A DNA stretch of 64,000 nucleotides from Patulibacter minatonensis DSM 18081 (GTDB taxonomy: Bacteria > Actinomycetota > Thermoleophilia > Solirubrobacterales > Solirubrobacteraceae): assembly GCF_000519325.1 (NCBI RefSeq), contig NZ_KI912613.1, positions 4,872,171 through 4,936,170 on the forward strand. Direction: 5' to 3'. Made by a program: the position numbers and the translations under genes. The notes beneath the pieces are model-generated. The model was given only the letters and a program-made list of their open reading frames with translations, made no database searches and was not told the origin of the DNA. Of the stretch, positions 6,637 to 18,013 are shown piece after piece. Position 1 is the stretch's first letter; every line of letters starts with the position of its first letter.

Positions 6637-6954
6637 TCAAGGCCGCTTCGGGTCGACGAGGACGAGCCGGCCGTCCGGCAGCCGGTAGACCTGGCCGACC
6701 GGCTCACCGCGACCGGTGACCCGCGAGGGCGAGGACGGGGTGCTCAGCGTGCGTTCGGTCGGGGTCGGCGAGCGTTCCGAGGTCCGGGTCCGCGGCACGA
6801 TCCTCCCGTCGTCGTCCATCGCGAGACTGAGACCCGCGACGAGGAAGGCGACCGCCAGGACGAGGCCGAGGTCGAACAGGTTGACGAGCCCGTCCAGCGG
6901 GTCGCCCGTGTCGCTGTCGACGCCGCCGTGGCGTCCGAGGCCGATGCGGCTCAT
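6637..6954 (-). CDS. DUF2149 family protein
   Basis: The 105-residue product has an N-terminus with 'DPLDGLVNLFDLGLVLAVAF', one transmembrane helix (about residues 28-47) and a C-terminal segment ending in a 'YRLPDGRLVLVD' strand, the hallmarks of DUF2149. Topologically this mimics ExbD/TolR: a short cytoplasmic end, one helix, then an extracytoplasmic domain. It is the last gene of the riboswitch-controlled operon and its ATG overlaps the stop of the ExbB-like gene (ATGA), so the two are probably made as a pair. DUF2149 is known mostly from neighbourhoods with MotA/TolQ/ExbB proteins and cobalt/cobalamin genes; the biochemical role is not established. Confidence 0.85.
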   Translation of the reverse strand: MSRIGLGRHGGVDSDTGDPLDGLVNLFDLGLVLAVAFLVAGLSLAMDDDGRIVPRTRTSERSPTPTERTLSTPSSPSRVTGRGEPVGQVYRLPDGRLVLVDPKRP

Positions 6955-7577
6955 CGGCCTGTCGCCTCGCCGCTGGTTCGGGCGGCACGCTCGAGCGCGG
7001 CGAGGTCCTCGGTGGCGATCCGGGTGCGCACCAGCGTGAGCGCGAACGCCGCGGTGCCGACGAGGATGCCGATGACCGTGGCGGCGAACGCGGTGCGGAG
7101 GTCGCCGGCGAGCGCGGCGACGTCGCCGCGGCCGAGGGCCGCGATGCCGGGACCGAGCGGGATCAGCGTGCCCATCAGGCCGACGGCGGGACCGGCGCGG
7201 ACGAGCATCCTGGTCCGGTCGAGGCGTCGCTGGACGCCCAGCTCGTAGTCGGCGAGGGCGTCCTCGACGGCCTCGGGACGACCGGTGGCCCGGGCCTCGG
7301 CCATGTCGCGGATCGCCCGCTCGGTCAGGGCACCCGGGGCGGCGCGCGCGATCTCCGGGGCCCGGCCCGGGTCGGCGAGGGCGCCAGCGGCGACGGCGAG
7401 CAGCCGCGGACGGGCAGGCCGCAGGCGCCGGGCGGCCTCGGCGGCGGCGCGGCCCAGCTCGAGGATGAGCAGGAGCCCGAGTGCGAGGGCGAGCACGTGG
7501 ACCGGCGTCTGCAGCGCGGAAGCGACGTCGGTGAGCGCGTCGGTGACGACGTCGGCAAGCGGCGCGGCGGGGGTCAT
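6951..7577 (-). CDS. MotA/TolQ/ExbB-like membrane protein
   Basis: The 208-residue product has an N-terminal transmembrane helix (about residues 24-42), a long charged cytoplasmic helical region and two C-terminal helices containing the family pattern 'AGPAVGLMGTLIPLGPGIAAL' and 'AFAATVIGILVGTAAFAL'. This matches the proton-channel core of ExbB/TolQ/MotA proteins, which use the proton-motive force to drive a partner. Its ATG overlaps the stop of the upstream EcfS gene and its stop overlaps the DUF2149 start. Finding an ExbB-like motor inside an ECF transporter operon is unusual, because ECF uptake is normally powered by ATP alone. Confidence 0.85.
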   Translation of the reverse strand: MTPAAPLADVVTDALTDVASALQTPVHVLALALGLLLILELGRAAAEAARRLRPARPRLLAVAAGALADPGRAPEIARAAPGALTERAIRDMAEARATGRPEAVEDALADYELGVQRRLDRTRMLVRAGPAVGLMGTLIPLGPGIAALGRGDVAALAGDLRTAFAATVIGILVGTAAFALTLVRTRIATEDLAALERAARTSGEATGR

Positions 7578-8209
7578 ACGGGGCTCCGAGGTGGGATGAC
7601 GGCGGGTTCGAAACGCCCTTCGCGGCGGGCACGGGACCGGCGGATCGCGACGAGCATGGCCGGCCCGAACGCGAGCGCGAACGCGACGTTGCCGGCGGCG
7701 TGCGCGCCGTCGAACGGGGCCGACGAGGCCGCGACGGCGACGAGCTCGCCGGTCCCTGCGCCGGTCGCGCCGAGCCAGACCGAGACGTTCATGATGGTTC
7801 CGAAGACGAGGCCCGCGAGACCGCAGACGACGGCGAGGGTCAAGCGGCCGACGTGGTCGCGGACCAGCAGCCCCAGTCCGGCGCCGAGCAGTCCGCAGCA
7901 CCCCCAGGCGAGCATCTGCCAGGCGGTCCATGGCCCTTGGCCGAAGGCGACGTTCGAGACGACCGCGGCGACCGCCCCGACGGCGAACCCGGGAGCGGCA
8001 CCGAGTGCGAGACCGGCGAGGACGACGACGTCGGTCGTGGGCTGCACGTTCGGCACCGGCGCCAGCGCGAGCCGGCCTACGGCAGCGAGCGCGGCCAGCG
8101 TCGCGACGAGGGCGAGGACGCGGGAGGGCGGACGCGTGCGCTCGTACCACCAGGCCATCAGGACGAGCGCGAGGACCACCAGCGCGGTCGCGGGGAGCGT
8201 CGGGCTCAC
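7574..8209 (-). CDS. ECF transporter substrate-binding (S) component, probably cobalamin-type
   Basis: The 211-residue hydrophobic protein has about six transmembrane helices. It carries the 'PNVQPTTDVVVLAGLALG' and 'GAVAAVVSNVAFGQGPWTAWQMLAWG' segments typical of ECF S components of the cobalamin/CbrT-like type. It would bind substrate in the membrane and dock onto the EcfT/EcfA module encoded just upstream. Translation starts at a GTG that overlaps the stop of the ATPase gene (GTGA), and its stop overlaps the ExbB-like ATG. Cobalamin specificity is inferred from the riboswitch and the DUF4430/toroid genes rather than from binding residues. Confidence 0.82.
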   Translation of the reverse strand: MSPTLPATALVVLALVLMAWWYERTRPPSRVLALVATLAALAAVGRLALAPVPNVQPTTDVVVLAGLALGAAPGFAVGAVAAVVSNVAFGQGPWTAWQMLAWGCCGLLGAGLGLLVRDHVGRLTLAVVCGLAGLVFGTIMNVSVWLGATGAGTGELVAVAASSAPFDGAHAAGNVAFALAFGPAMLVAIRRSRARREGRFEPAVIPPRSPV

Positions 8210-9897
8210 GGGGCGCTGCGCTCCGCGGCGCGCGACGCTCGGCCGGTCGTCGAGCGTGTCCGGGCCTGCAGGACCGCAGCTCCCGCGTCCGGGGTCAGGG
8301 CGTCGGCCCGGCCCAGGATCCGAGCGGTCTGCGTTGCGAAATACCACCCGCGACCGAGGAGCGCCCCCGGCGGACCGTCGGCGAGCACGCGCCCACCACC
8401 GAGCAGGACGACGCGGTCGGCGGCCTCGGCGGCGAACTCGACGTCGTGGGTGGCGACGACGATCGCCGTTCCGGCGGCCGACAACCGGTCGATCTCGATG
8501 AGGAGCGCGGACCGGGCGGCGGCGTCCATGCCGCGGGTCGGCTCGTCGAGGCCGAGGAGCGCGGGGGGCGTCGCGCCACCGAGGACGACCGCGAGGGCGA
8601 GCCTCTGGCGCTGCCCGCCGGAGAGGTCGCGCGGATGACGGTCCGCGAGGTGGTCCAGGCCGACGAGCTGCAGGGCGGCACTCGTCGTCTCGTCGCCGAC
8701 GCGGTCGTGCAGGAGCACGTCGCCGGGGTGCTGCGGCAGGAGCGCGGCGGTCCCGGCGCACTGCACGCGGCCGCGCGTCGGGCGGTCGAGGTCGGCCATC
8801 AGCCGCAGCAGCGAGGACTTTCCCGCGCCGTTGCGGCCCATCAGCGCGACGCGTTCGCCCGGCCCCACGTCCAGGTCGACACCCGCGAGGACGACCGGAC
8901 CGTCGGAGATCTCCCGCCACGCGGCGCGGAGGCGGATCGCCGGGTCCACCGCGCGTGCGCGACGGCCCTTGGTCGTCGCGGCCCGGCCTCGTGTCGTCGT
9001 GTCCTCGACGCGGTCGGCCGACCCGACGTCGTGCGCGATCGCCAGCCGGGCGTCTCGGACGCCGACCGGGAGTGGGCGGCGACCCGCGGCGTGGAACAGT
9101 CGCGCGGCCGGGGACAGCAGTCCGGGGTCGTGGTCCGCGGCCCAGTCCAGGAACGCCCCCGGCGTCGCGTCGCAGGCGACGCGTCCGGCGCGCAGCGCGA
9201 TCACGCGATCGGCGTGGTGCAGGCAGCGGTCGAGCCGGTGCTCGGCGAGGAGGACCGCGGTGCCGTGCTCCTCGTTCAGCCGACGGAGGAGCCAGACGAG
9301 CTCGTCGCCGGCGACCGGGTCCAGCTGGGCGGTCGGCTCGTCGAGGAGGAACAGCCGGAGGCCGTCGGACGGGCCGCCGCGCGCACCGGCGACGAGCGCG
9401 GCGCCGAGTGCGACGCGCTGCAGCTCGCCGCCGGAGAGCTCGTTCGTGCGGCGCTCGAGCAGCGGTTCGATGGAGAGCGCGAGCGCGACCTCCTCGACCG
9501 CCTGGGCGACCGTGGCCTCGTCCTCGCCGCGGAGGCGCAGCGGCAGCGCCAGCTCGGCCCGTACGGTGTTCATGACGACCTGGGTCTCCGGGTCCTGCAG
9601 CACCGTTCCGACGACGGCCGCCAGCGCGGATGGCCCGGCGTCGCGGGTGTCGACGCCGGCCACGCGCACGTGACCCTGCAGCACGCCGCCGACGTGGTGC
9701 GGAAGCAGACCGCAGCAGGCGTGCAGCAGCGTCGACTTCCCGGACCCCGACGCACCGGCGACGACGACGAACTCCCCGGGTCGGACGGTGAACGAGACGT
9801 CCTCCAGCGACGGGACGGCAGCGCCGGCGTGCGTCGCGGTCACGTGCTCGAGCTCGAGCACGGGGGTACCGGCCGTCACCCGGGCGAGGGCGTTCAC
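8206..9897 (-). CDS. ECF transporter ATPase, two ATP-binding domains fused
   Basis: The 563-residue protein contains two ABC ATPase domains, equivalent to EcfA1 and EcfA2 joined in one chain. Domain 1 has Walker A GASGSGKST (48-56), signature LSGGELQR and Walker B with LFLLDEPT. Domain 2 has Walker A GRNGAGKSS (near residue 350), signature LSGGQRQRLA and Walker B with LLGLDEPTRG. Both domains look catalytically intact. The GTG start at 9897 overlaps the stop of the EcfT gene (GTGA). It powers the uptake transporter formed with the neighbouring EcfT and EcfS proteins. Confidence 0.95.
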   Translation of the reverse strand: MNALARVTAGTPVLELEHVTATHAGAAVPSLEDVSFTVRPGEFVVVAGASGSGKSTLLHACCGLLPHHVGGVLQGHVRVAGVDTRDAGPSALAAVVGTVLQDPETQVVMNTVRAELALPLRLRGEDEATVAQAVEEVALALSIEPLLERRTNELSGGELQRVALGAALVAGARGGPSDGLRLFLLDEPTAQLDPVAGDELVWLLRRLNEEHGTAVLLAEHRLDRCLHHADRVIALRAGRVACDATPGAFLDWAADHDPGLLSPAARLFHAAGRRPLPVGVRDARLAIAHDVGSADRVEDTTTRGRAATTKGRRARAVDPAIRLRAAWREISDGPVVLAGVDLDVGPGERVALMGRNGAGKSSLLRLMADLDRPTRGRVQCAGTAALLPQHPGDVLLHDRVGDETTSAALQLVGLDHLADRHPRDLSGGQRQRLALAVVLGGATPPALLGLDEPTRGMDAAARSALLIEIDRLSAAGTAIVVATHDVEFAAEAADRVVLLGGGRVLADGPPGALLGRGWYFATQTARILGRADALTPDAGAAVLQARTRSTTGRASRAAERSAP

Positions 9898-10871
9898 GGC
9901 CCCGTTCCCCGTCGGTCCGCGAGCGGGGCGACGAGCGGCAGCACCAGCGCGACCGCGAAGAGGGCCGCCGACGACGCCGGGCGACCGGAGAGCTCGGGGT
10001 CCGTGCCGAGGCGCAGCGCGCCGGTCGCGATCCCTGCCGCGGTGACCGCGACCAGCAGGACGGCCGAGCCGGCCAGCGCGAGGTCGTGGCGCGACCACGG
10101 ACGACGAGCACGCGGTGCCCGACCCCGCGCCGCCGGGGGCAGTCCGTGGCCGCGGAGCTCGAGGGTCGCGGACAGGTCGGAGGCGCGCTCGAGGACGGAG
10201 CCGGTGACGGCACGCACGACGAGCAGACGGGCGCCGCGGTCGTCGGTGGCGCCGGGCGTCCCGGCGGGCCGGGAGCGCCGGGCGTCCGCCATCCGTGCGC
10301 CGTCACGGACGAGGACCGGGGCGATCCGTAGCGCGAGGGAGGCGGTGAGCGCGCCCGCGGGCCACCGGCGGTGGGCTGCGAGCAGCAGCGCGTCGAGGTC
10401 GACGGTCGCCGCCGCGATCGCGGTCGCCACGAACACGATCGCGAGCCGCAGCGCGAGGGCACCGGCGGCGACGAGCGCCTCGAGGGTGATGTCGACGGCC
10501 CCGAGGACGGGGAGCGTCCCGAGCCGCGCGAGGACGGTCAGGCCGTGGCGGTCCACGAGCACCTGGAGCACGACCAGGACGACGAGCATCGGGACCGCGA
10601 AGCGTGCGATCCGGCGCAGCCGCGCGGCGGCGCCGACCCGGGCGGCGACGCCCACGACGGCGGCCAGCGTCGCGGCGAGCGCCACTGGGTGCGAGATCGC
10701 GAGCGCGACGACCGCGACGGCTGCGCACCAGGCGGCGGAAACCACCGGGCGGGCAGCGCTCAGGGCCGAGCCCCGGCGCGTCGTCCCGGACGCCCGCGCC
10801 CCGACCGTCGGCGGAGCGTCGCTCGGCCGAGATGCCGCGGCGGGTGCTTCGGTCGCGCTCGTGCCGATCAT
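9894..10871 (-). CDS. ECF transporter transmembrane (T) component, CbiQ/EcfT family
   Basis: The 325-residue membrane protein has a Pro/Ala-rich N-terminal extension and about five or six helices. It carries the EcfT coupling region 'LRIAPVLVRDGARMADARR', which in this family contacts the ATPases. A second Arg-rich element ('SATLELRGHGLP') lies further on, as in CbiQ proteins. It links the S component to the fused ATPase. The ATG overlaps the stop of the DUF4430 lipoprotein gene (ATGA) and its stop overlaps the ATPase GTG, so the three are translationally coupled. Confidence 0.92.
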   Translation of the reverse strand: MIGTSATEAPAAASRPSDAPPTVGARASGTTRRGSALSAARPVVSAAWCAAVAVVALAISHPVALAATLAAVVGVAARVGAAARLRRIARFAVPMLVVLVVLQVLVDRHGLTVLARLGTLPVLGAVDITLEALVAAGALALRLAIVFVATAIAAATVDLDALLLAAHRRWPAGALTASLALRIAPVLVRDGARMADARRSRPAGTPGATDDRGARLLVVRAVTGSVLERASDLSATLELRGHGLPPAARGRAPRARRPWSRHDLALAGSAVLLVAVTAAGIATGALRLGTDPELSGRPASSAALFAVALVLPLVAPLADRRGTGP

Positions 10872-11767
10872 CGTTCCGGCCCGGTCGGGAGCGGCGACGT
10901 GCGGTCGCCGCGGACGAGGACCGCGAAGCGCCCGCGGAGCGTCGGCTCGCGCAGCGCGGCGGCGGCCGCGGTCGCGTCGGCCTCGGTCGCACCGGTCACG
11001 AGCCAGGTCACCCCGGAGCCGCGGGGGCGCATCGCGGCGACGAGCCCCCAGCGTCGCAGCAGCGGACCGGAACGCCCGGCCGCGTCGTAGGCGGCGAGGC
11101 CGCCCCGCACCGGGACCGCGAGGACTCCGGAGGCGCGGGGCCCGCGGGCGAACGCCCGAGCACCGTCCTCACGGCGCAGTGCCGGCCAGGCGCCGACCAG
11201 CACACGGACCGTCGCGGACGGGGACCGGTCGTCGAGAGCGCGCGGCTGCGTCGCGACGCCTGCCGCGCGGAGCCGGTCGACGGTCGTCCGACAGGCCTCG
11301 CCGGCGGGGTCGGCGCACGCGAGGTCGGGGCGCGCGCCGTCACCCCGGAGCGGGGCGGGGAACGATCCGACGACCGCGCCGACCGCCGCGAGCCCCGTCT
11401 CCTGGCGGTCCCACCAGATGTGGTCGCCGTCGTGCACGCGGATGCTCGTGGCTCCCTTCTCCGCCTGGACGCCGTTGACGAAGTAGATCCAGTCCCGGGT
11501 CCGACCGTCCGCGCGCTCGCCGCCCTCGCGGCCGCTGACCGCGGTGACGAACGCGCCGCCGTACGCCGTGTCGACCCGGGCGTTGCGGCGGAGGAGCCGC
11601 ATGATGGTGTCCTCGCCCTCGATCTTCGGGGTGGCGCTCTGGAGGATGGTCCTGCGACCGAAGCCGTCGGTCACCCGCAGCGTCACGTCCGTCGGGGTCT
11701 CCCCCGCGCCCAGACCGCAGCCGGTCAGGAGGAGCGCGAGCAGGACGACGAAGAGCGGACGCCTCAC
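10868..11767 (-). CDS. DUF4430 lipoprotein (intrinsic-factor beta-domain family), putative cobalamin binder
   Basis: The 299-residue product begins with a lipoprotein signal; the lipobox LLTGC places the lipidated Cys at about residue 17. Next comes a DUF4430 domain over about residues 28-130, recognisable by 'DWIYFVNGVQAEKGA' and 'VHDGDHIWWDRQE'. DUF4430 is the family of the C-terminal beta domain of animal intrinsic factor and transcobalamin, which caps bound vitamin B12. The remaining half contains two cysteines and an alpha/beta region I do not recognise. The GTG start overlaps the stop of the toroid gene, so the two may be made as partners. A cobalamin-binding role is inferred from the family plus riboswitch control. 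Confidence 0.85.
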   Translation of the reverse strand: MRRPLFVVLLALLLTGCGLGAGETPTDVTLRVTDGFGRRTILQSATPKIEGEDTIMRLLRRNARVDTAYGGAFVTAVSGREGGERADGRTRDWIYFVNGVQAEKGATSIRVHDGDHIWWDRQETGLAAVGAVVGSFPAPLRGDGARPDLACADPAGEACRTTVDRLRAAGVATQPRALDDRSPSATVRVLVGAWPALRREDGARAFARGPRASGVLAVPVRGGLAAYDAAGRSGPLLRRWGLVAAMRPRGSGVTWLVTGATEADATAAAAALREPTLRGRFAVLVRGDRTSPLPTGPER

Positions 11768-13557
11768 GACGCCACCTCCCGCGGGACCCGTCGCTCGAGG
11801 CCGGCGCCGGCCGCGAACACCAGGACCGCCAGTCCGCCGAGACCGATCGACGCCCACGGCGTGCTCGAGTCGCCCGCCCGTGCCGACCGTAGACCCGGGG
11901 CGATCGCGCGCTCGCGCTCGGTGCCCTGCGTGCCCCGCGGCTCCTGGACGATCGCGCCCGAGACCGCAGTGCCGGCTGGGTCCTCCGCCTTCGCGCGCTC
12001 CCCGTTCTGGACGCCGCCGTCGTCGCCGGGACCGCTGGCGGCGGCCGTACCGGTCGCGCCCTTCCGGCCCTGGGTGCCTCGCCGTGCGGCCTGGTCGCGC
12101 TCGGTGTCGCGGGCCCCGCCGGGCGTCGCCCCGCGGCTCTGCGGCTGCGGCCGACTGAAGAGCGGCGCGCCTCGACCGCCGCCACCGCCCGACACGACGC
12201 CTCCGTCGTCGGACGAGGAGCCCGCGTCGCCCCGCTCGGCCTCCTCGCGCAGCTCGCGCCGTGCGGCGACCTTCTCGGATCGCGCCTGCTTCGCTGCGGC
12301 CCGGCGCGCCTCGCGACGGACCACGGCCTCGCGCGGCGGCGCCGGGACGGGCCATGCCTGGCCCGCGAACGCCGGCGCCGCGTAGGCGGTCATCCAGGTC
12401 GGGTTGAGGTCGCGGCTCTCGCGCCAGCGGATGCTGCCCTCGCGACGCTGGAGCGTGCCCAGGAACTCGAGCGGGTCCCTGCCGCCTTTCCGCCACGTCG
12501 CCGGGTCGGTGCCGGTCGCCCACAGGGCCTGGACGACCCACGGCGTCGTACCGGCGTTGGACTCGCCGGGCCGCTCGTCGGCAAGATCTCCGGCCTGCCA
12601 CCCGCCGTCGGGCTGCTGGTGGTCCTTCAGCCACGCGAGCGCGCGACGGACCGCGGCGGTGCCGCACCGACGGGCGACGCAGAGCGCCTGGATCGCGGCG
12701 CCGGTCATGTCGACGTTCGTGCCATCGCCGGGTCGGACCGCGGGCCAGGTGCCGTCGGGGCGCTGCATCGCCTCGACGGCGCTGGCGGCCCGGGCGATCG
12801 GGGCCTTCGTGTCGGTGCCGCCTGCGCCGGCGAGGAAGAAGATCGCGAAGATCGTGTCGTTGACGCCAGGGTTCTGCCCGTCCCGGACGTGCGGGAACCA
12901 GCCCGGTGGGACCGGCTTCGCGGGCACCCGGGCGGTCGACGAGGAACTGCCGTCGGTCGGGAGTGCCCCGGGCCCGACCGGGGGTGCCGCCGCGGACAGG
13001 TCCGGTGCCGCCCCCGACGACTGCTCGGGAGCGGAATCGGAAGGCGGCTGCCACGCGCTCTGCGACTGCCGATCCATCAGCGACCGGACGTAGTCGCGAC
13101 CGCCGAAGCTCCGCGGGTCCATGCCGGCGGCGTTGATGAACATGCCGATGCGCTCGAACTCCGTCGTCACCGGCGGGCGGCCGCCGGAGGTGATCGGCCC
13201 CGCGGACTCGAGGTACGTCGCGACGCTGCGCGTCCTGGACCCCGGCGCCTTCTGGTCCTGCGGGTTGATGCCGGCCGCCGCCAGCCCGATCCCGACCCAC
13301 GCGCTGATCAGCGGGTCGGACGCGGCACCTGGGGTACCGCCGTAGCCGCCGTCGTCGTTCTGGGTGTCCTGGAGGAACCGCACGATGCGGTCCAGCCGGG
13401 CGCCCTCCCGCGCGCTCGGCGCGGGGTGCTTTCCGGCGGCGTCGACCGCATCGGTCCCGCCGACGAACGACGCCGACGCGGAGGCGATGGCGAGCGCCAT
13501 GGCCGCCGCTGCCAGGCGGCGACGAGGGCGCGGCCCGGCGGGGCGGCGGAGCGGCAC
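11764..13557 (-). CDS. anchored alpha/alpha-toroid protein (squalene-cyclase/prenyltransferase repeat; intrinsic-factor alpha-domain-like)
   Basis: The 597-residue product has a signal peptide and then repeats of the toroid type over about residues 50-410, including 'DTQNDDGGYGG', 'FIFFLAGAGG'-like helices, 'MQRPDGTWPAV' and 'LKDHQQPDGGWQAG'. After a long low-complexity, charged linker it ends in one transmembrane helix and a short basic tail, so the toroid would be displayed outside the cell. Automated pipelines would probably call this a prenyltransferase or squalene oxidase repeat protein, but export, anchoring and B12 control fit the related alpha domain of intrinsic factor better. It starts at a GTG seven bases after the preceding stop. 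Confidence 0.88.
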   Translation of the reverse strand: MPLRRPAGPRPRRRLAAAAMALAIASASASFVGGTDAVDAAGKHPAPSAREGARLDRIVRFLQDTQNDDGGYGGTPGAASDPLISAWVGIGLAAAGINPQDQKAPGSRTRSVATYLESAGPITSGGRPPVTTEFERIGMFINAAGMDPRSFGGRDYVRSLMDRQSQSAWQPPSDSAPEQSSGAAPDLSAAAPPVGPGALPTDGSSSSTARVPAKPVPPGWFPHVRDGQNPGVNDTIFAIFFLAGAGGTDTKAPIARAASAVEAMQRPDGTWPAVRPGDGTNVDMTGAAIQALCVARRCGTAAVRRALAWLKDHQQPDGGWQAGDLADERPGESNAGTTPWVVQALWATGTDPATWRKGGRDPLEFLGTLQRREGSIRWRESRDLNPTWMTAYAAPAFAGQAWPVPAPPREAVVRREARRAAAKQARSEKVAARRELREEAERGDAGSSSDDGGVVSGGGGGRGAPLFSRPQPQSRGATPGGARDTERDQAARRGTQGRKGATGTAAASGPGDDGGVQNGERAKAEDPAGTAVSGAIVQEPRGTQGTERERAIAPGLRSARAGDSSTPWASIGLGGLAVLVFAAGAGLERRVPREVAS

Positions 13558-13564
13558 CCGGGCC

Positions 13565-15214
13565 TCAGGGTCCGACGGCGAGACCGTCGGCCCGGACCAC
13601 GCCCGAGAGCACGCGGACCCGCACGGCGGAACCGCGGCGACGGTCGCGGGCGCGGAGCACGACGGTCCGGCCGTCGGCGTGCGCGGGGACGGTCAGGCGC
13701 TGCGGACGCGCCCGGCCGGAACGCACCTCGACGACGGCCTTGCGCCGGTCGGAGCGGACGACCAGCGCCGGACGGCCGGCGGGCAACGTGACGCGCAGCG
13801 ACGTGCCGCGGCCCATCCGCGTGACGGTCTTCCGCCACGCCAGCGGGTCGTCCTCACGAGCGATGCGACCGGAGAAGCGGACCTGCCGGACCCGCTCGTC
13901 GATCGGCACGACGACACGTCCGATCGGCCGGAGCACCGCACCGCCTGTCGGGGCGACGAAGCGGGCCCTCAGGTCGACCGTGCGACCGAACGGCACGTCG
14001 AGGAGCGCCGAGCTCTGCACCGTGCCGCTCTTCGCCGTCCTCCACCGCGGCTGCGCGACTCCCGGGACGCGGTACTCGATGCGCCAGCCCTTCATCGCGG
14101 CTCCGCCGAGGACGGTCCACCGGACGCCGACGAGCGCCGCGGGGTTGCCGTCGGTGGTGACGCGCAGCCCCTGCACGGTGAGGCCGCCGACCCGGAAGCC
14201 CTTGCCCGACGGTGCCGCCGCGCCGACGGTCAGCGCGCCGCTGCCGGTCGGTGTCGGGGCGGGCGAGGGAACGGTGCTGGGCGGCGGAACGCGCGTGGCG
14301 GTGTCCGCCGACGGGGTCGCGCCGCAGCCCGCGCCGGCCGCGTCGGTGACGCAGACGTCGAGCCGGTTGGAGCGCACGAAGCCGGTGCCCTCGGCCTTGA
14401 CCCGCTTCCAGCCCGGCGTCGACCACGACAGGGTCGCGTGGCCGGCGGCGTCGGAGACGACGGTCGCCGGGTCGGTGCTCTGGATCGTCTGCACGCCGTT
14501 CGCGGCGGTCGTGACCGGCGAGACGCGCACGCCCGCGGCAGGCTTGCGGTATCCGGCGGCACCGATGTCGCCGGTCGACTCGTTGCGGATCGTCGTGACG
14601 CCGAACGGCTGCCCGAGCCCGACGGTGAAACTGCTCTTCGCCGCGGCGGTGGGCGGGGCGCCCTCGACGTCGGACGTCGGCTCCCCCACGCCCTGCGGAC
14701 CGTCGAGCCGGAGCAGGTCCCGGTTGTTGAACGCGTCGTAGACCCAGAGCGTCTGGTCGCCCGGGTTCAGGCCGTACTGGCAGCCGCCGACGGAGGTGTA
14801 GATCCCGTTGACGAGGATGCCCCAGTAGGCGGCGGTCCCGGCGTCCTCGGCGTCCGGTCCGAAGCGTTGGATGAAGTAGTCGTCGAAGCCGGGGTACCAC
14901 TGACCGTCGAAGTCCTGGCCGATGCTGCGCATCGCGTCCTCGGACGCGGCGGTCGGGGTCGGCCCGGGCGTCGCGTGGGCGCCGTTGTTCGTGCCGTCGC
15001 ACTTCCGGGCCTCGGTGTCCGACGACGCACGGATCGCGTGGCCGTCGGTGCGGATCGTGCCCTCGAAGAGCGTCGTGCTCTTCCCCTCGATCCTCACGCG
15101 CTGGTCCGACGGCGCGGCGCGTGCCGGTCCGGCGCCGACGGCGGCGGCGGCGACGACGAGGGTGCTTACGATGAGAGCGGCGACGACTGAGCGTCCCGCG
15201 ATGGAGCGAGCCAT
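13565..15214 (-). CDS. secreted protein with DUF4430-like domain, first gene of the B12 operon
   Basis: The 549-residue product has a signal peptide (cleavage near residue 34). An N-terminal domain resembling DUF4430 follows, with 'YWGILVNGIYTSVGGCQYG' and 'NPGDQTLWVYDAF' near residues 130-170 and paired cysteines. After it come a bacterial Ig-like region ending in a paired-Cys segment (VCVTDAAGAGC), a Pro/Thr linker and a beta-rich C-terminal half. No C-terminal anchor is visible. It directly follows the minus-strand cobalamin riboswitch. The ATG has a strong Shine-Dalgarno (GGGGAGAAGG) that lies in a hairpin, so control is probably translational. The likely role is extracellular cobalamin capture, by inference. 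Confidence 0.8.
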   Translation of the reverse strand: MARSIAGRSVVAALIVSTLVVAAAAVGAGPARAAPSDQRVRIEGKSTTLFEGTIRTDGHAIRASSDTEARKCDGTNNGAHATPGPTPTAASEDAMRSIGQDFDGQWYPGFDDYFIQRFGPDAEDAGTAAYWGILVNGIYTSVGGCQYGLNPGDQTLWVYDAFNNRDLLRLDGPQGVGEPTSDVEGAPPTAAAKSSFTVGLGQPFGVTTIRNESTGDIGAAGYRKPAAGVRVSPVTTAANGVQTIQSTDPATVVSDAAGHATLSWSTPGWKRVKAEGTGFVRSNRLDVCVTDAAGAGCGATPSADTATRVPPPSTVPSPAPTPTGSGALTVGAAAPSGKGFRVGGLTVQGLRVTTDGNPAALVGVRWTVLGGAAMKGWRIEYRVPGVAQPRWRTAKSGTVQSSALLDVPFGRTVDLRARFVAPTGGAVLRPIGRVVVPIDERVRQVRFSGRIAREDDPLAWRKTVTRMGRGTSLRVTLPAGRPALVVRSDRRKAVVEVRSGRARPQRLTVPAHADGRTVVLRARDRRRGSAVRVRVLSGVVRADGLAVGP

Positions 15215-15225
15215 GGTGTCCTTCT

Positions 15226-15242
15226 CCCCTAGTCCCGAGGGG
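15226..15242 (-). promoter_or_regulatory. Shine-Dalgarno-sequestering hairpin of the riboswitch expression platform
   Basis: In the minus-strand RNA, CCCCT (15242-15238) can pair with AGGGG (15230-15226), which forms part of the ribosome-binding site of the first operon gene. The loop is seven bases. This suggests that ligand-bound RNA hides the ribosome-binding site. Confidence 0.6.
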
Positions 15243-15263
15243 CGTTCGACGTGGGGCGGACCG

Positions 15264-15447
15264 GGCAGGTCTCCTGGCTCACGACTGGGGTCCCGCCGCG
15301 CCTTCCCAGGAGACCCTCCTCCCAGTGGCTGCACGTGGCGTGCGGCGGTCCTGATCGCTCACAGTGGCGGGTCCGCGCCGGTCTTGCACCGGTCTTCCCT
15401 TCACCACGTTCCGCTGATGTTCGCGCTGAAGGTAGCACGGACACCTG
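15264..15447 (-). ncRNA. cobalamin riboswitch controlling the minus-strand B12 operon
   Basis: Read on the minus strand, the RNA shows the conserved cobalamin riboswitch core in order: GGGAAGACCGGTGCAAG, ACCGGCGCGGACCCGCCACT, then GCCACTG, GGGAAGG and finally GAGCCAGGAGACCTGCC. The ends pair through CAGGT (15447-15443) and ACCTG (15270-15266), giving helix P1. It lies 50 bases upstream of the first operon ATG. Adenosylcobalamin-type ligands repress such elements, so the whole downstream unit is expected to be induced by B12 shortage. Confidence 0.96.
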
Positions 15448-15474
15448 GCGCGTCGGCCTGCTACGTTGCTGCCG

Positions 15475-15620
15475 TCACGAGCGGGGAACTCCGGTGGGAA
15501 TCCGGGGCTGACGCGCAGCGGTATGGGGGACGAGCGACTCTCGTTGCCACTGGAACAGGGCTCCGTCCTGGTCCGGGAAGGCGAGTCGTGAGGACGATCC
15601 CGAGCCCGAACATCCGCTCG
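15475..15620 (+). ncRNA. second, divergent cobalamin riboswitch controlling the collagen-stalk toroid gene
   Basis: On the plus strand the conserved elements occur in order: GGGGAACTCCGGTGGGAA, TCCGGGGCTGACGCGCAGCG, GGTATGGGGGACGAGCG, GCCACTGG, CCGGGAAGGCG, then GAGCCCGAACATC. This is a complete cobalamin riboswitch core. A -10-like TACGTT (15462-15467, preceded by TG) lies just upstream. The aptamer ends about 110 bases before the start codon of the next gene. Only about 28 bp separate it from the 5' end of the minus-strand riboswitch. Confidence 0.94.
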
Positions 15621-15727
15621 GACGTCATAGGCCATCCGTCTCGCGAAAGGACGGCGTCCGTGCAGACGCGCCGCCCTCCGCGGACCGCGTCCTCCGCGTG
15701 TCGTCGTCCCAGAACAGGAGCAACGAC

Positions 15728-18013
15728 ATGCGTTCAACGAGCAGCCTCCGGCTGCGCACCCTCGGCATCGCCGCGGTCCTCACCGCGGCCGCCCTCCCGG
15801 CCGCGGCCGGCGCGGCACCCGCCACCCAGGCGGAGATCGACACCGCCGTCCAGAACGGCGCCGGCTGGGTCGTGAACCAGCAGGGCCGGACCACGACCGG
15901 AGCGCCCGGCGGAGCCACGAACGGCTCGCTCCCCGGCTTCCAGGGCAACTGGGTCATCACCTCGCTCGCCGCAGCGGGGATCAACGCCGCCGACGTCCAG
16001 AACCCGGGCGTCACCCAGAGCCTCCAGGATTGGCAGCAGGGGACCTACCCCGGAAGCTACGCGACGCTCCCGAACACCAACTCCGCCGGCGCGTTCGGTC
16101 GCGAGGCCCTGATCTCCTCCTCGGCCGGGATCCAGGTCACGAAGGTCACGCAGGACCTGAACATGACCGCGTCGCTGGCCAGTCGGTGGCGCAAGGCCAA
16201 CGGCGACTTCGGGGCGTTCGCACCCAACAGCGACGGCTTCGCGCTGCTGGCCACGAACAGCCTGTTCCTGCCCAAGGGCGTGCGGCAGAAGATCGTCGCC
16301 AACCTCCTGGCCGCGCAGAAGACGTCGACGACGCCGGACGCCCAGGGACGCACCGCGGTCGGCGGCTGGTCGTTCACCGCCGGCGCCACCGGCAACGGCG
16401 ACATCGACATGACCGGTGCCGTCCTCTCGATGGTGTGCCAGGAGGGCATGACGCCAGCCGACGCGCCGGTCGCGAAGGGCATCGACTTCCTGAAGCGTCG
16501 CCTGAACCCGACGACCGGCGGCTTCGGCGTCGCGAACGAGAACAGCATCCCGCCGAACAACCTGCCGTCCGCCGGCTGGGCGCTGATCGGCCTGAAGGCC
16601 TGCGGTGTCGATCCGCAGAGCGCCGAATGGACGACCCCGAACGACCAGAACCCGGTGAAGTTCATCCTCGGTCTGCAGCGCCTGTCCGGCACGAACACGA
16701 ACCCCGGCGAGGTCGGCTACGGCAGCTTCAAGTACGCCCCGACGACCGCGTATCCGGCGGGCGGCACCGACATGAACTCGGCCGAGGTCGCCGTCCGCGC
16801 GCTCTCGAACTTCCGCTGGTCGGCCCCCGCACCGGTCCGCGCGAACCCCACGAACCCTCGCCTGCGGCCCGCTCCCACGGTGACCGACGGCACGACCGTC
16901 CCGATCGCGCTGAGCGTCGACGCCGGCGACGGCGACGTGCGCTTCTGCGCCGTGCGGATCCCGTCAGGCGCGCCGCTGACCGACGTCCTGACCGCCGCGA
17001 AGGCGGCCTCGATTCCGACGGGCTGCGTCGACGACTTCACGACCTCCAAGGGCGTCGTGACGTCCGTCAACGGGAAGACTCTGCCCCCGGGGGCTCGCTG
17101 GCAGGTCCGCTTCCAGGCCAGCGCGCCGCAGCTCGCGGGTACGCAGGCAGTGCGCTTCGGTGGCGTCGTCGCGCTGGAGGTCGGCACCCCGGTCGCGGCT
17201 CCGGCGCCGGTGACGTTCGCCGAGCAGCCGCAGTCGACGATCTCGGCGGCCCGGACGGTGACGTTCACCGCCGGGCAGGACGCGATCGACGTGGCGCGCG
17301 CGTCGATCACCGGCACGCACGTCAGCGACTTCCTGGTGACCCGCGACGGGTGCGCCGAGGCCACCCTGAACACGAACGACACCTGCTCGATCGACATCCG
17401 GTTCGCACCGGGCGAGGCTGGTGCGCGCGCGGCCGCGGTGCGTCTGATCGGTGCGGGCGGCCAGCCGGTCTCCGCCGACGTCGCGCTGACCGGCACCGGT
17501 GGGGCACTCCCGAAGGGCGACACTGGCGCGCCGGGCACCCCGGGGACGAACGGTGCGCCGGGCGCGTCAGGCACGCAGGGCACGCCGGGGTCCGACGGCG
17601 CCAACGGCACGGACGGTGCAGACGGCTCGAACGGCACGAACGGTGCAGACGGCAAGAACGGCGCGCCAGGCGTCGCAGGGGCCACGGGCCCTGCCGGTCC
17701 CGCCGGTCTCGCGGGTGCCAAGGGCGACCGCGGCAACCGAGGCCCGGAGGGCGCCGACGCCGCCGTGCGATGCCGCCTGGTCCGAGGCAGCGCGTCGCGC
17801 ATCACCTGCACGGTTTCCGGCGAGAACGCCACGAACCGGACCGTCCGGGCCCGGTTGACTCGTCACGGCCGGACGTACGCGACCGGCACGGTGCGGCGCA
17901 CCCGGACGGAGCTCCGCCGCACCAGCGGCCGACGCCTCGTCGCCGGCTCGTACACGCTCCGCGTCGGTGCCGGCCGCCAGGCCTCGGCCCTGAAGGTCGT
18001 CGTCCCGCGTTGA
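15728..18013 (+). CDS. secreted alpha/alpha-toroid protein with collagen-like stalk, B12-regulated
   Basis: The 761-residue product begins with a signal peptide (cleavage near residue 30). A toroid domain follows over about residues 35-370, with repeat landmarks such as 'NGAGWVVNQQGR', 'GGWSFTAGATGNGDIDMTGA' and 'RRLNPTTGGFGV'. Two beta domains come next, the second (about 500-595) being of the choice-of-anchor/ASH type. A collagen-like Gly-X-Y segment spans about residues 597-680, and a 75-residue beta domain ends the chain. The ATG has AGGAG seven bases upstream. It lies behind its own cobalamin riboswitch and diverges from the B12 uptake operon, so it is probably a secreted or wall-associated capture protein. 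No LPXTG motif or transmembrane anchor is visible. Confidence 0.88.
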   Translation: MRSTSSLRLRTLGIAAVLTAAALPAAAGAAPATQAEIDTAVQNGAGWVVNQQGRTTTGAPGGATNGSLPGFQGNWVITSLAAAGINAADVQNPGVTQSLQDWQQGTYPGSYATLPNTNSAGAFGREALISSSAGIQVTKVTQDLNMTASLASRWRKANGDFGAFAPNSDGFALLATNSLFLPKGVRQKIVANLLAAQKTSTTPDAQGRTAVGGWSFTAGATGNGDIDMTGAVLSMVCQEGMTPADAPVAKGIDFLKRRLNPTTGGFGVANENSIPPNNLPSAGWALIGLKACGVDPQSAEWTTPNDQNPVKFILGLQRLSGTNTNPGEVGYGSFKYAPTTAYPAGGTDMNSAEVAVRALSNFRWSAPAPVRANPTNPRLRPAPTVTDGTTVPIALSVDAGDGDVRFCAVRIPSGAPLTDVLTAAKAASIPTGCVDDFTTSKGVVTSVNGKTLPPGARWQVRFQASAPQLAGTQAVRFGGVVALEVGTPVAAPAPVTFAEQPQSTISAARTVTFTAGQDAIDVARASITGTHVSDFLVTRDGCAEATLNTNDTCSIDIRFAPGEAGARAAAVRLIGAGGQPVSADVALTGTGGALPKGDTGAPGTPGTNGAPGASGTQGTPGSDGANGTDGADGSNGTNGADGKNGAPGVAGATGPAGPAGLAGAKGDRGNRGPEGADAAVRCRLVRGSASRITCTVSGENATNRTVRARLTRHGRTYATGTVRRTRTELRRTSGRRLVAGSYTLRVGAGRQASALKVVVPR

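Follow-up and report, generated by a model that had tools for sequence, protein, structure and literature searches.

How is vitamin B12 (cobalamin) captured outside the cells of Gram-positive bacteria? To our knowledge this step is poorly known, and the question is raised by a locus of Patulibacter minatonensis DSM 18081 in which nine genes flank two divergent, overlapping cobalamin riboswitches. The locus occupies positions 6637-18013 of an analysed stretch of 64,000 nt (the window; all positions given are those of this stretch). The original prediction described it as encoding two exported alpha/alpha toroid proteins, a DUF4430 lipoprotein, a second secreted DUF4430-like protein and a complete energy-coupling factor (ECF) transporter (T component, fused A-A ATPase and S component), and compared toroid and DUF4430 with the two domains of animal intrinsic factor. 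This inventory was borne out, and both the domain matches of the nine genes and two RF00174 aptamers scoring above the Rfam gathering score confirmed the layout. Judging from homology and gene context, we consider it quite probable that B12 or a related corrinoid is captured by toroid and DUF4430 parts at the cell surface and delivered to a CbrT-like S component.

Eight of the genes form a leftward operon whose gene ends touch, overlap or stand close together. Counted from the riboswitch, the order is secreted DUF4430-like protein, toroid 1, DUF4430 lipoprotein, ECF T component, fused A-A ATPase, S component, MotA/ExbB-type protein and DUF2149 protein; toroid 2, which carries collagen repeats, is the sole gene listed on the plus strand. 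Since a congeneric genome (locus L047) retains the identical nine genes together with both riboswitches, and since DUF4430 was found nowhere else in the P. minatonensis genome (5.52 Mb searched), the arrangement is more than a product of chance.

Control by B12 is well supported. The leftward operon is preceded by an aptamer at 15247-15463 (minus strand; RF00174, 73.4 bits, E 3.3e-16), which is kept in L047 and in the Conexibacter arvalis locus L161, and toroid 2 by another one at 15429-15635 (plus strand; RF00174, 67.4 bits, E 1.8e-14). The two have 35 nt in common (15429-15463), within which the outer stem of one is encoded on one strand and that of the other on the opposite strand. In the plus-strand riboswitch the B12 box (15600-15620) is degenerate (GAGCCCGAACATCCGC), while the remaining core is conserved. 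The riboswitch class is read correctly, because the remaining cobalamin riboswitches in this genome (L158, G000:C1:1490001-1510000; L159; L160) lie upstream of BtuF-like binding proteins (PF01497), MetE and CbtA, and a weak match lies upstream of CobN. Both riboswitches of the locus would repress at high B12. As BtuF-like proteins stand behind such riboswitches elsewhere in the genome, the locus is probably not the sole corrinoid uptake route of the cell.

The transport genes resemble those of a known B12 importer. The S component (7574-8209, minus strand), which has six hydrophobic segments, matches chain A of 6FNP, the ECF-CbrT complex of Lactobacillus delbrueckii, both by phmmer (E 2.1e-18) and with a family profile (E 1.4e-24); this chain is the only PDB match of the S-component profile and no other entry comes near. 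ECF-CbrT takes up cobalamin and cobinamide in an ATP-dependent manner, and nanomolar binding has been measured (PMC5997447). The S component is accompanied by a T component of the CbiQ family (9894-10871, minus strand; PF02361, E 7.9e-10) and by a fused A-A ATPase (8206-9897, minus strand) with two ABC_tran stretches (E 1.9e-44) and an ECF_ATPase NCBIfam match of 4e-71 that lies below the cut-off. An S component homologous to CbrT, a T component and two ATPase domains are thus all present, and their assignment as a CbrT-type cobalamin/corrinoid importer is well supported at the level of homology. The predicted function in B12 uptake finds support in the riboswitches and in this likeness to a proven cobalamin and cobinamide importer. 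The L. delbrueckii system differs in that CbrT relies on one ECF module shared with other S components (PMC5997447), whereas P. minatonensis has dedicated ATPases in fused form and encodes a DUF4430 lipoprotein and toroids alongside them, and the toroid of relatives is sometimes fused to the S component.

DUF4430 domains occur in the lipoprotein (10868-11767, minus strand; PF14478, E 4e-14, plus a lipobox) and at the N-terminus of the secreted protein (13565-15214, minus strand), which has one N-terminal hydrophobic segment. In the secreted protein the Pfam match is below the cut-off (PF14478, E 0.003), and a purpose-built DUF4430 hidden Markov model (HMM) matches residues 110-161 with E 3.8e-8. 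DUF4430 is homologous to the beta domain of transcobalamin, as profile and structure searches show. Through its DUF4430 part, a profile of Firmicutes DUF4430-toroid fusions retrieves transcobalamin-1 (E 1.2e-5) together with the beta domain of transcobalamin-2 (E 2.2e-4) from the PDB; when the window lipoprotein heads the profile, transcobalamins are the sole PDB matches at E<=10, with a weaker best E of 0.098; and Foldseek aligns a fusion model with 5np4, a transcobalamin beta domain with cyanocobalamin (E 1.5e-4), and with whole transcobalamin (E 1.9e-4). The family profile is required for this result, as a single-sequence search of the PDB with the window lipoprotein gave nothing useful.

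The toroids are the second half of the proposed pair. Toroid 1 (11764-13557, minus strand; SQHop_cyclase_C, 8.6e-13) has hydrophobic segments at 15-33 and 569-587, consistent with an exported alpha/alpha toroid held by a C-terminal membrane anchor. Structures were predicted for two monomers, toroid 1 and one DUF4430-toroid fusion. The toroid 1 model (pLDDT 82.6, pTM 0.83) has twelve helices and, among solved structures, comes closest to squalene-hopene and drimenyl-diphosphate cyclases (Z about 26 to 27). Intrinsic factor is not among the 50 best entries for this model, which does not by itself show that the folds differ. The toroid of the fusion model (pLDDT 88.5, pTM 0.71) aligns to intrinsic factor (3kq4) with Z 17.5 and 3.3 A over 229 residues, so that the alpha6/alpha6 barrel of the transcobalamin family is seen in both models. 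The toroid thus falls within the broad class of terpene-cyclase-like folds and, by sequence, outside the eukaryotic cobalamin-binding family; its gene context makes a role as binding half most likely.

Toroid 2 (15728-18013, plus strand) most likely starts with the ATG at 15728 behind AGGAG. It is a secreted protein in which a toroid and a putative DUF4430-like beta domain are followed by a choice-of-anchor D domain (choice_anch_D, 6e-8) and collagen repeats (PF01391, 8.9e-14). Toroid 2 by itself has no toroid match in Pfam; its orthologue in Conexibacter (L161) matches SQHop_cyclase_C (7e-8) and a purpose-built toroid HMM (3e-29). Of HHalign and HMMER with our own DUF4430 HMM, only the former picked up the putative divergent DUF4430-like domain at 16880-17182 on the plus strand (P 8e-5, probability 61%). 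Toroid 2 may hence hold alpha then beta, the order of intrinsic factor.

The original prediction assumed that the two domains are encoded as separate exported proteins. For toroid 1 and the lipoprotein this is the case, although the split is the form of this lineage only, and in relatives the domains are fused. DUF4430 and toroid share a single reading frame in 26 loci, several of them with LPXTG-like or SLH-like anchors. In Firmicutes these fusions are sortase- or S-layer-anchored: the short proteins of L107 (530 aa) and L105 (609 aa), which are clear cases, consist of a signal peptide, DUF4430, toroid and an LPNTAT-type wall-anchor motif and have a riboswitch directly upstream, and the one of L154 carries S-layer-type repeats (judged by eye) instead of this motif. 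A relative from the same class encodes a single exported protein (L039:3350-5578) that runs from a signal through DUF4430 and a linker to a toroid. Pfam confirms DUF4430 and toroid, and the frame of this protein overlaps a second DUF4430 reading frame. Moreover, in 17 actinobacterial loci the S component runs in frame into a toroid, which ties the toroid to transport. In the two S-toroid fusions inspected there is an added hydrophobic segment between S and toroid and another one at the end; the toroid is therefore predicted to be tethered outside. Part of the fusion counts could be spurious among long GC-rich frames. Chance frames are nevertheless an unlikely source of the S-toroid fusions, which are joined in frame without a stop in 17 of 17 loci, and of the DUF4430-toroid fusions, whose low-GC Firmicutes frames include a signal peptide and a wall anchor.

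Compared with transcobalamin, intrinsic factor and haptocorrin, DUF4430 matches the beta domain of the carriers, and it is paired with a 12-helix alpha/alpha toroid, in many relatives within one chain. Most bacterial fusions run beta then alpha; several Clostridia have the toroid first and DUF4430 second, as in intrinsic factor. In P. minatonensis, by contrast, the main pair consists of separate anchored proteins and the toroid is nearer to terpene cyclases in sequence. The analogy with intrinsic factor drawn earlier is hence upheld by the natural two-domain exported fusions and by the human transcobalamins that the fusion profile finds through the beta domain, but not by the nearest folds of the toroid, which are squalene-hopene and drimenyl-diphosphate cyclases.

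Does the partnership recur beyond this genome? By the S component alone we retrieved 80 loci from species genomes, which belong to Solirubrobacterales, Clostridia, Bacilli, Paenibacillus and a few archaeal bins. With purpose-built HMMs, the T component is seen on the same strand in 76 of the 80 loci, DUF4430 in 70 and the toroid in 61. A cobalamin riboswitch lies upstream of the S gene in 61 of 80 loci, usually directly before the first exported gene; most of the 19 loci without one are on short or cut contigs. The riboswitch model used on these loci matches the window by construction (the Rfam result is independent of it) and was silent in seven other loci searched. Of 296 Actinomycetota genomes, 52 have DUF4430, and this S component is present in 51 of these (Fisher p 6e-26, a value that overstates independence because the genomes share ancestry), and DUF4430 lies within 8 kb on the same strand for 39 of 51 strong S genes. 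The co-occurrence of toroid, DUF4430 and ECF genes behind cobalamin riboswitches, suggested as a check in the original prediction, is thus found repeatedly among the 80 loci. CbrT-type S and DUF4430 genes were also seen on contigs binned as archaea (L109 and L157; Euryarchaeota and Nitrososphaerota bins), where binning errors are possible.

Taken together, the riboswitches, the homology of the S component to CbrT, that of DUF4430 to the beta domain, the fold of the toroid, the export signals, the recurring partnership and the fusions support capture of a corrinoid at the surface of a Gram-positive-type cell. When B12 is scarce, the riboswitches would allow expression of both operons. The exported toroid and DUF4430 parts, held by lipid, by a C-terminal helix or released as secreted proteins, would clasp the corrinoid between them in the manner of intrinsic factor and transcobalamin. 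From the DUF4430 lipoprotein and the membrane-tethered toroid 1 it would then go to the CbrT-like S component, and the T component and fused A-A ATPase would power its passage through the membrane. Corrinoid binding by the toroid and DUF4430 parts, their acting together and the order of hand-over are inferred.

Several observations weigh against this reading. In both sequence and fold, squalene-hopene cyclases (Z 26.8) stand nearer to the toroid than intrinsic factor does, and the window toroid has no eukaryotic cobalamin-binding Pfam match at E<=0.01, which leaves its alpha domain outside that family by sequence. In 19 of the 80 S loci a toroid was not detected. The DxDD motif is kept in 10 of the 22 related sequences of the toroid 1 alignment. 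The genome also encodes a riboswitch-controlled BtuF-type binding protein, so that the locus could serve another corrinoid. In class II terpene cyclases, which are cytosolic, membrane-monotopic enzymes, DxDD is the catalytic motif. One might accordingly see in the toroids exported enzymes of the squalene-cyclase/prenyltransferase superfamily that act on a lipid or cell-surface substrate and belong to the B12 regulon for other reasons, the more so as class II terpene cyclases are their best matches in sequence and fold. However, toroid 1 has NVDM and toroid 2 has DIDM at the DxDD site, and the motif is missing from all 14 fusions checked. The window toroids carry N-terminal export signals and a C-terminal anchor (judged from hydropathy only), unlike the cyclases; in relatives the toroid shares a chain with a CbrT-type S component or with DUF4430; and a terpene-cyclase role would leave the cobalamin riboswitches unexplained. 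We therefore consider an enzymatic role very improbable.

The collagen, choice-of-anchor and RCC1-like parts in toroid 2 and in Conexibacter neighbours, together with the wall anchors on many fusions, would also suit scaffolds or adhesins that place the transporter in the envelope without touching a ligand. Against this stand the homology of DUF4430 to the cobalamin-binding beta domain of transcobalamin and the recurrence of exactly this two-domain pairing, in both orders, across phyla; the explanation appears improbable to us. A different kind of alternative leaves the capture as proposed and changes its cargo, which could be another corrinoid or cobalt species (cobinamide, other cobamides or incomplete corrinoids). 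Cobinamide is also carried by CbrT (PMC5997447), and the genome has CobN, CbtA and BtuF-like proteins under a cobalamin riboswitch of their own. The nanomolar affinity of CbrT for cobalamin speaks for B12 itself, with ligand preference being unreadable from sequence; on balance another cargo seems unlikely, though less so than a scaffold.

The last two genes of the leftward operon encode a MotA/ExbB-type membrane protein (6951-7577, minus strand), whose PF01618 match (E 2.3e-7) is over the cut-off, and a DUF2149 protein (6637-6954, minus strand; PF09919, E 1.5e-9) with an ExbD-like layout: a single transmembrane helix, in which an Asp at the ExbD position is invariant, precedes a small outer part. 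The earlier description left this pair undiscussed, although it belongs to the operon. As an extension of the capture proposal, MotA/ExbB and DUF2149 might form a motor driven by protons, which would open the capture proteins or let the corrinoid go to the transporter, much as TonB-ExbB-ExbD does for BtuB in Gram-negative bacteria. PF01618 provides the MotA_ExbB channel of an ExbB-ExbD motor, and MotA is found in the same operon across several families (the window, L046, L047, L054, L058, L061, L063 and L161), as is DUF2149 where the contig extends. In Conexibacter arvalis the pair even accompanies a toroid-DUF4430 capture module without ECF genes. This second locus, L161 (G107:C4:108001-125000), shares the divergent riboswitch pair: DUF2149, MotA, toroid 1 and a secreted DUF4430 protein stand behind one riboswitch, and the other precedes toroid 2, a collagen protein with RCC1-like repeats and one more secreted DUF4430 protein. 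This stretch showed no ECF genes, which lie on a separate contig, with an S-toroid fusion (L056). Because Conexibacter arvalis has the two sets on separate contigs, the P. minatonensis locus is best described as two modules joined, one for capture and one for transport.

On the other side, the similarity of DUF2149 to ExbD of Escherichia coli is weak (HHalign over the transmembrane helix, P 0.0014, probability 18%), the DUF2149 profile has no ExbD match in the PDB, and MotA-DUF2149 is missing from most ECF loci. The pair also occurs in cassettes with a toroid or a PKD protein and with neither DUF4430 nor a cobalamin riboswitch nearby (L164, L165, L166 and L169). Since it can adjoin a toroid or PKD-domain protein without a riboswitch, a general rule by which MotA-DUF2149 is a B12-only motor was dropped; the use of this motor-like pair seems to extend to other exported proteins. 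A motor for corrinoid release in this locus is a possibility that we hold to be unlikely.

Among the capture parts of the locus, prior annotation existed for the lipoprotein only. K8Q211 of L. rhamnosus is annotated as 'Additional lipoprotein component of putative cobalamin ECF transporter' (PMC9963975), which ties the lipoprotein to cobalamin ECF transporters; the toroid, the capture mechanism and the link to intrinsic factor were not found in the searched literature. In the open-licence papers searched, bacterial DUF4430 is apparently not treated as a B12 binder, and we found no description of the toroid pairing, the S-toroid fusions or wall-anchored DUF4430-toroid proteins behind cobalamin riboswitches. 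A comparable strategy is known from Bacteroides, where BtuG and BtuH are surface B12 capture proteins under cobalamin riboswitches beside transporter genes (PMC8941943). These systems use a beta-propeller, a BtuH domain, a Gram-negative outer membrane and BtuB/BtuFCD instead of ECF.

Given that these genes are found together again and again in Gram-positive bacteria, it is probable that the protein parts with which animals and bacteria catch B12 are related. The widest form of this idea strikes us as doubtful: a Gram-positive, TonB-free machine in which separate toroid and DUF4430 proteins act as transcobalamin-like clamps, are opened by proton-driven MotA/ExbB-DUF2149 and feed CbrT, with the animal carriers deriving from this pairing or sharing its origin. 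The locus and its relatives offer a testable capture system for a transporter with a solved core. By their shared pairing of two domains they also provide a tangible bacterial counterpart for tracing where intrinsic factor and transcobalamin came from. Many Firmicutes and Actinobacteria carry genes whose only matches are to terpene-cyclase/prenyltransferase and DUF4430 models, and these would thereby gain a function.

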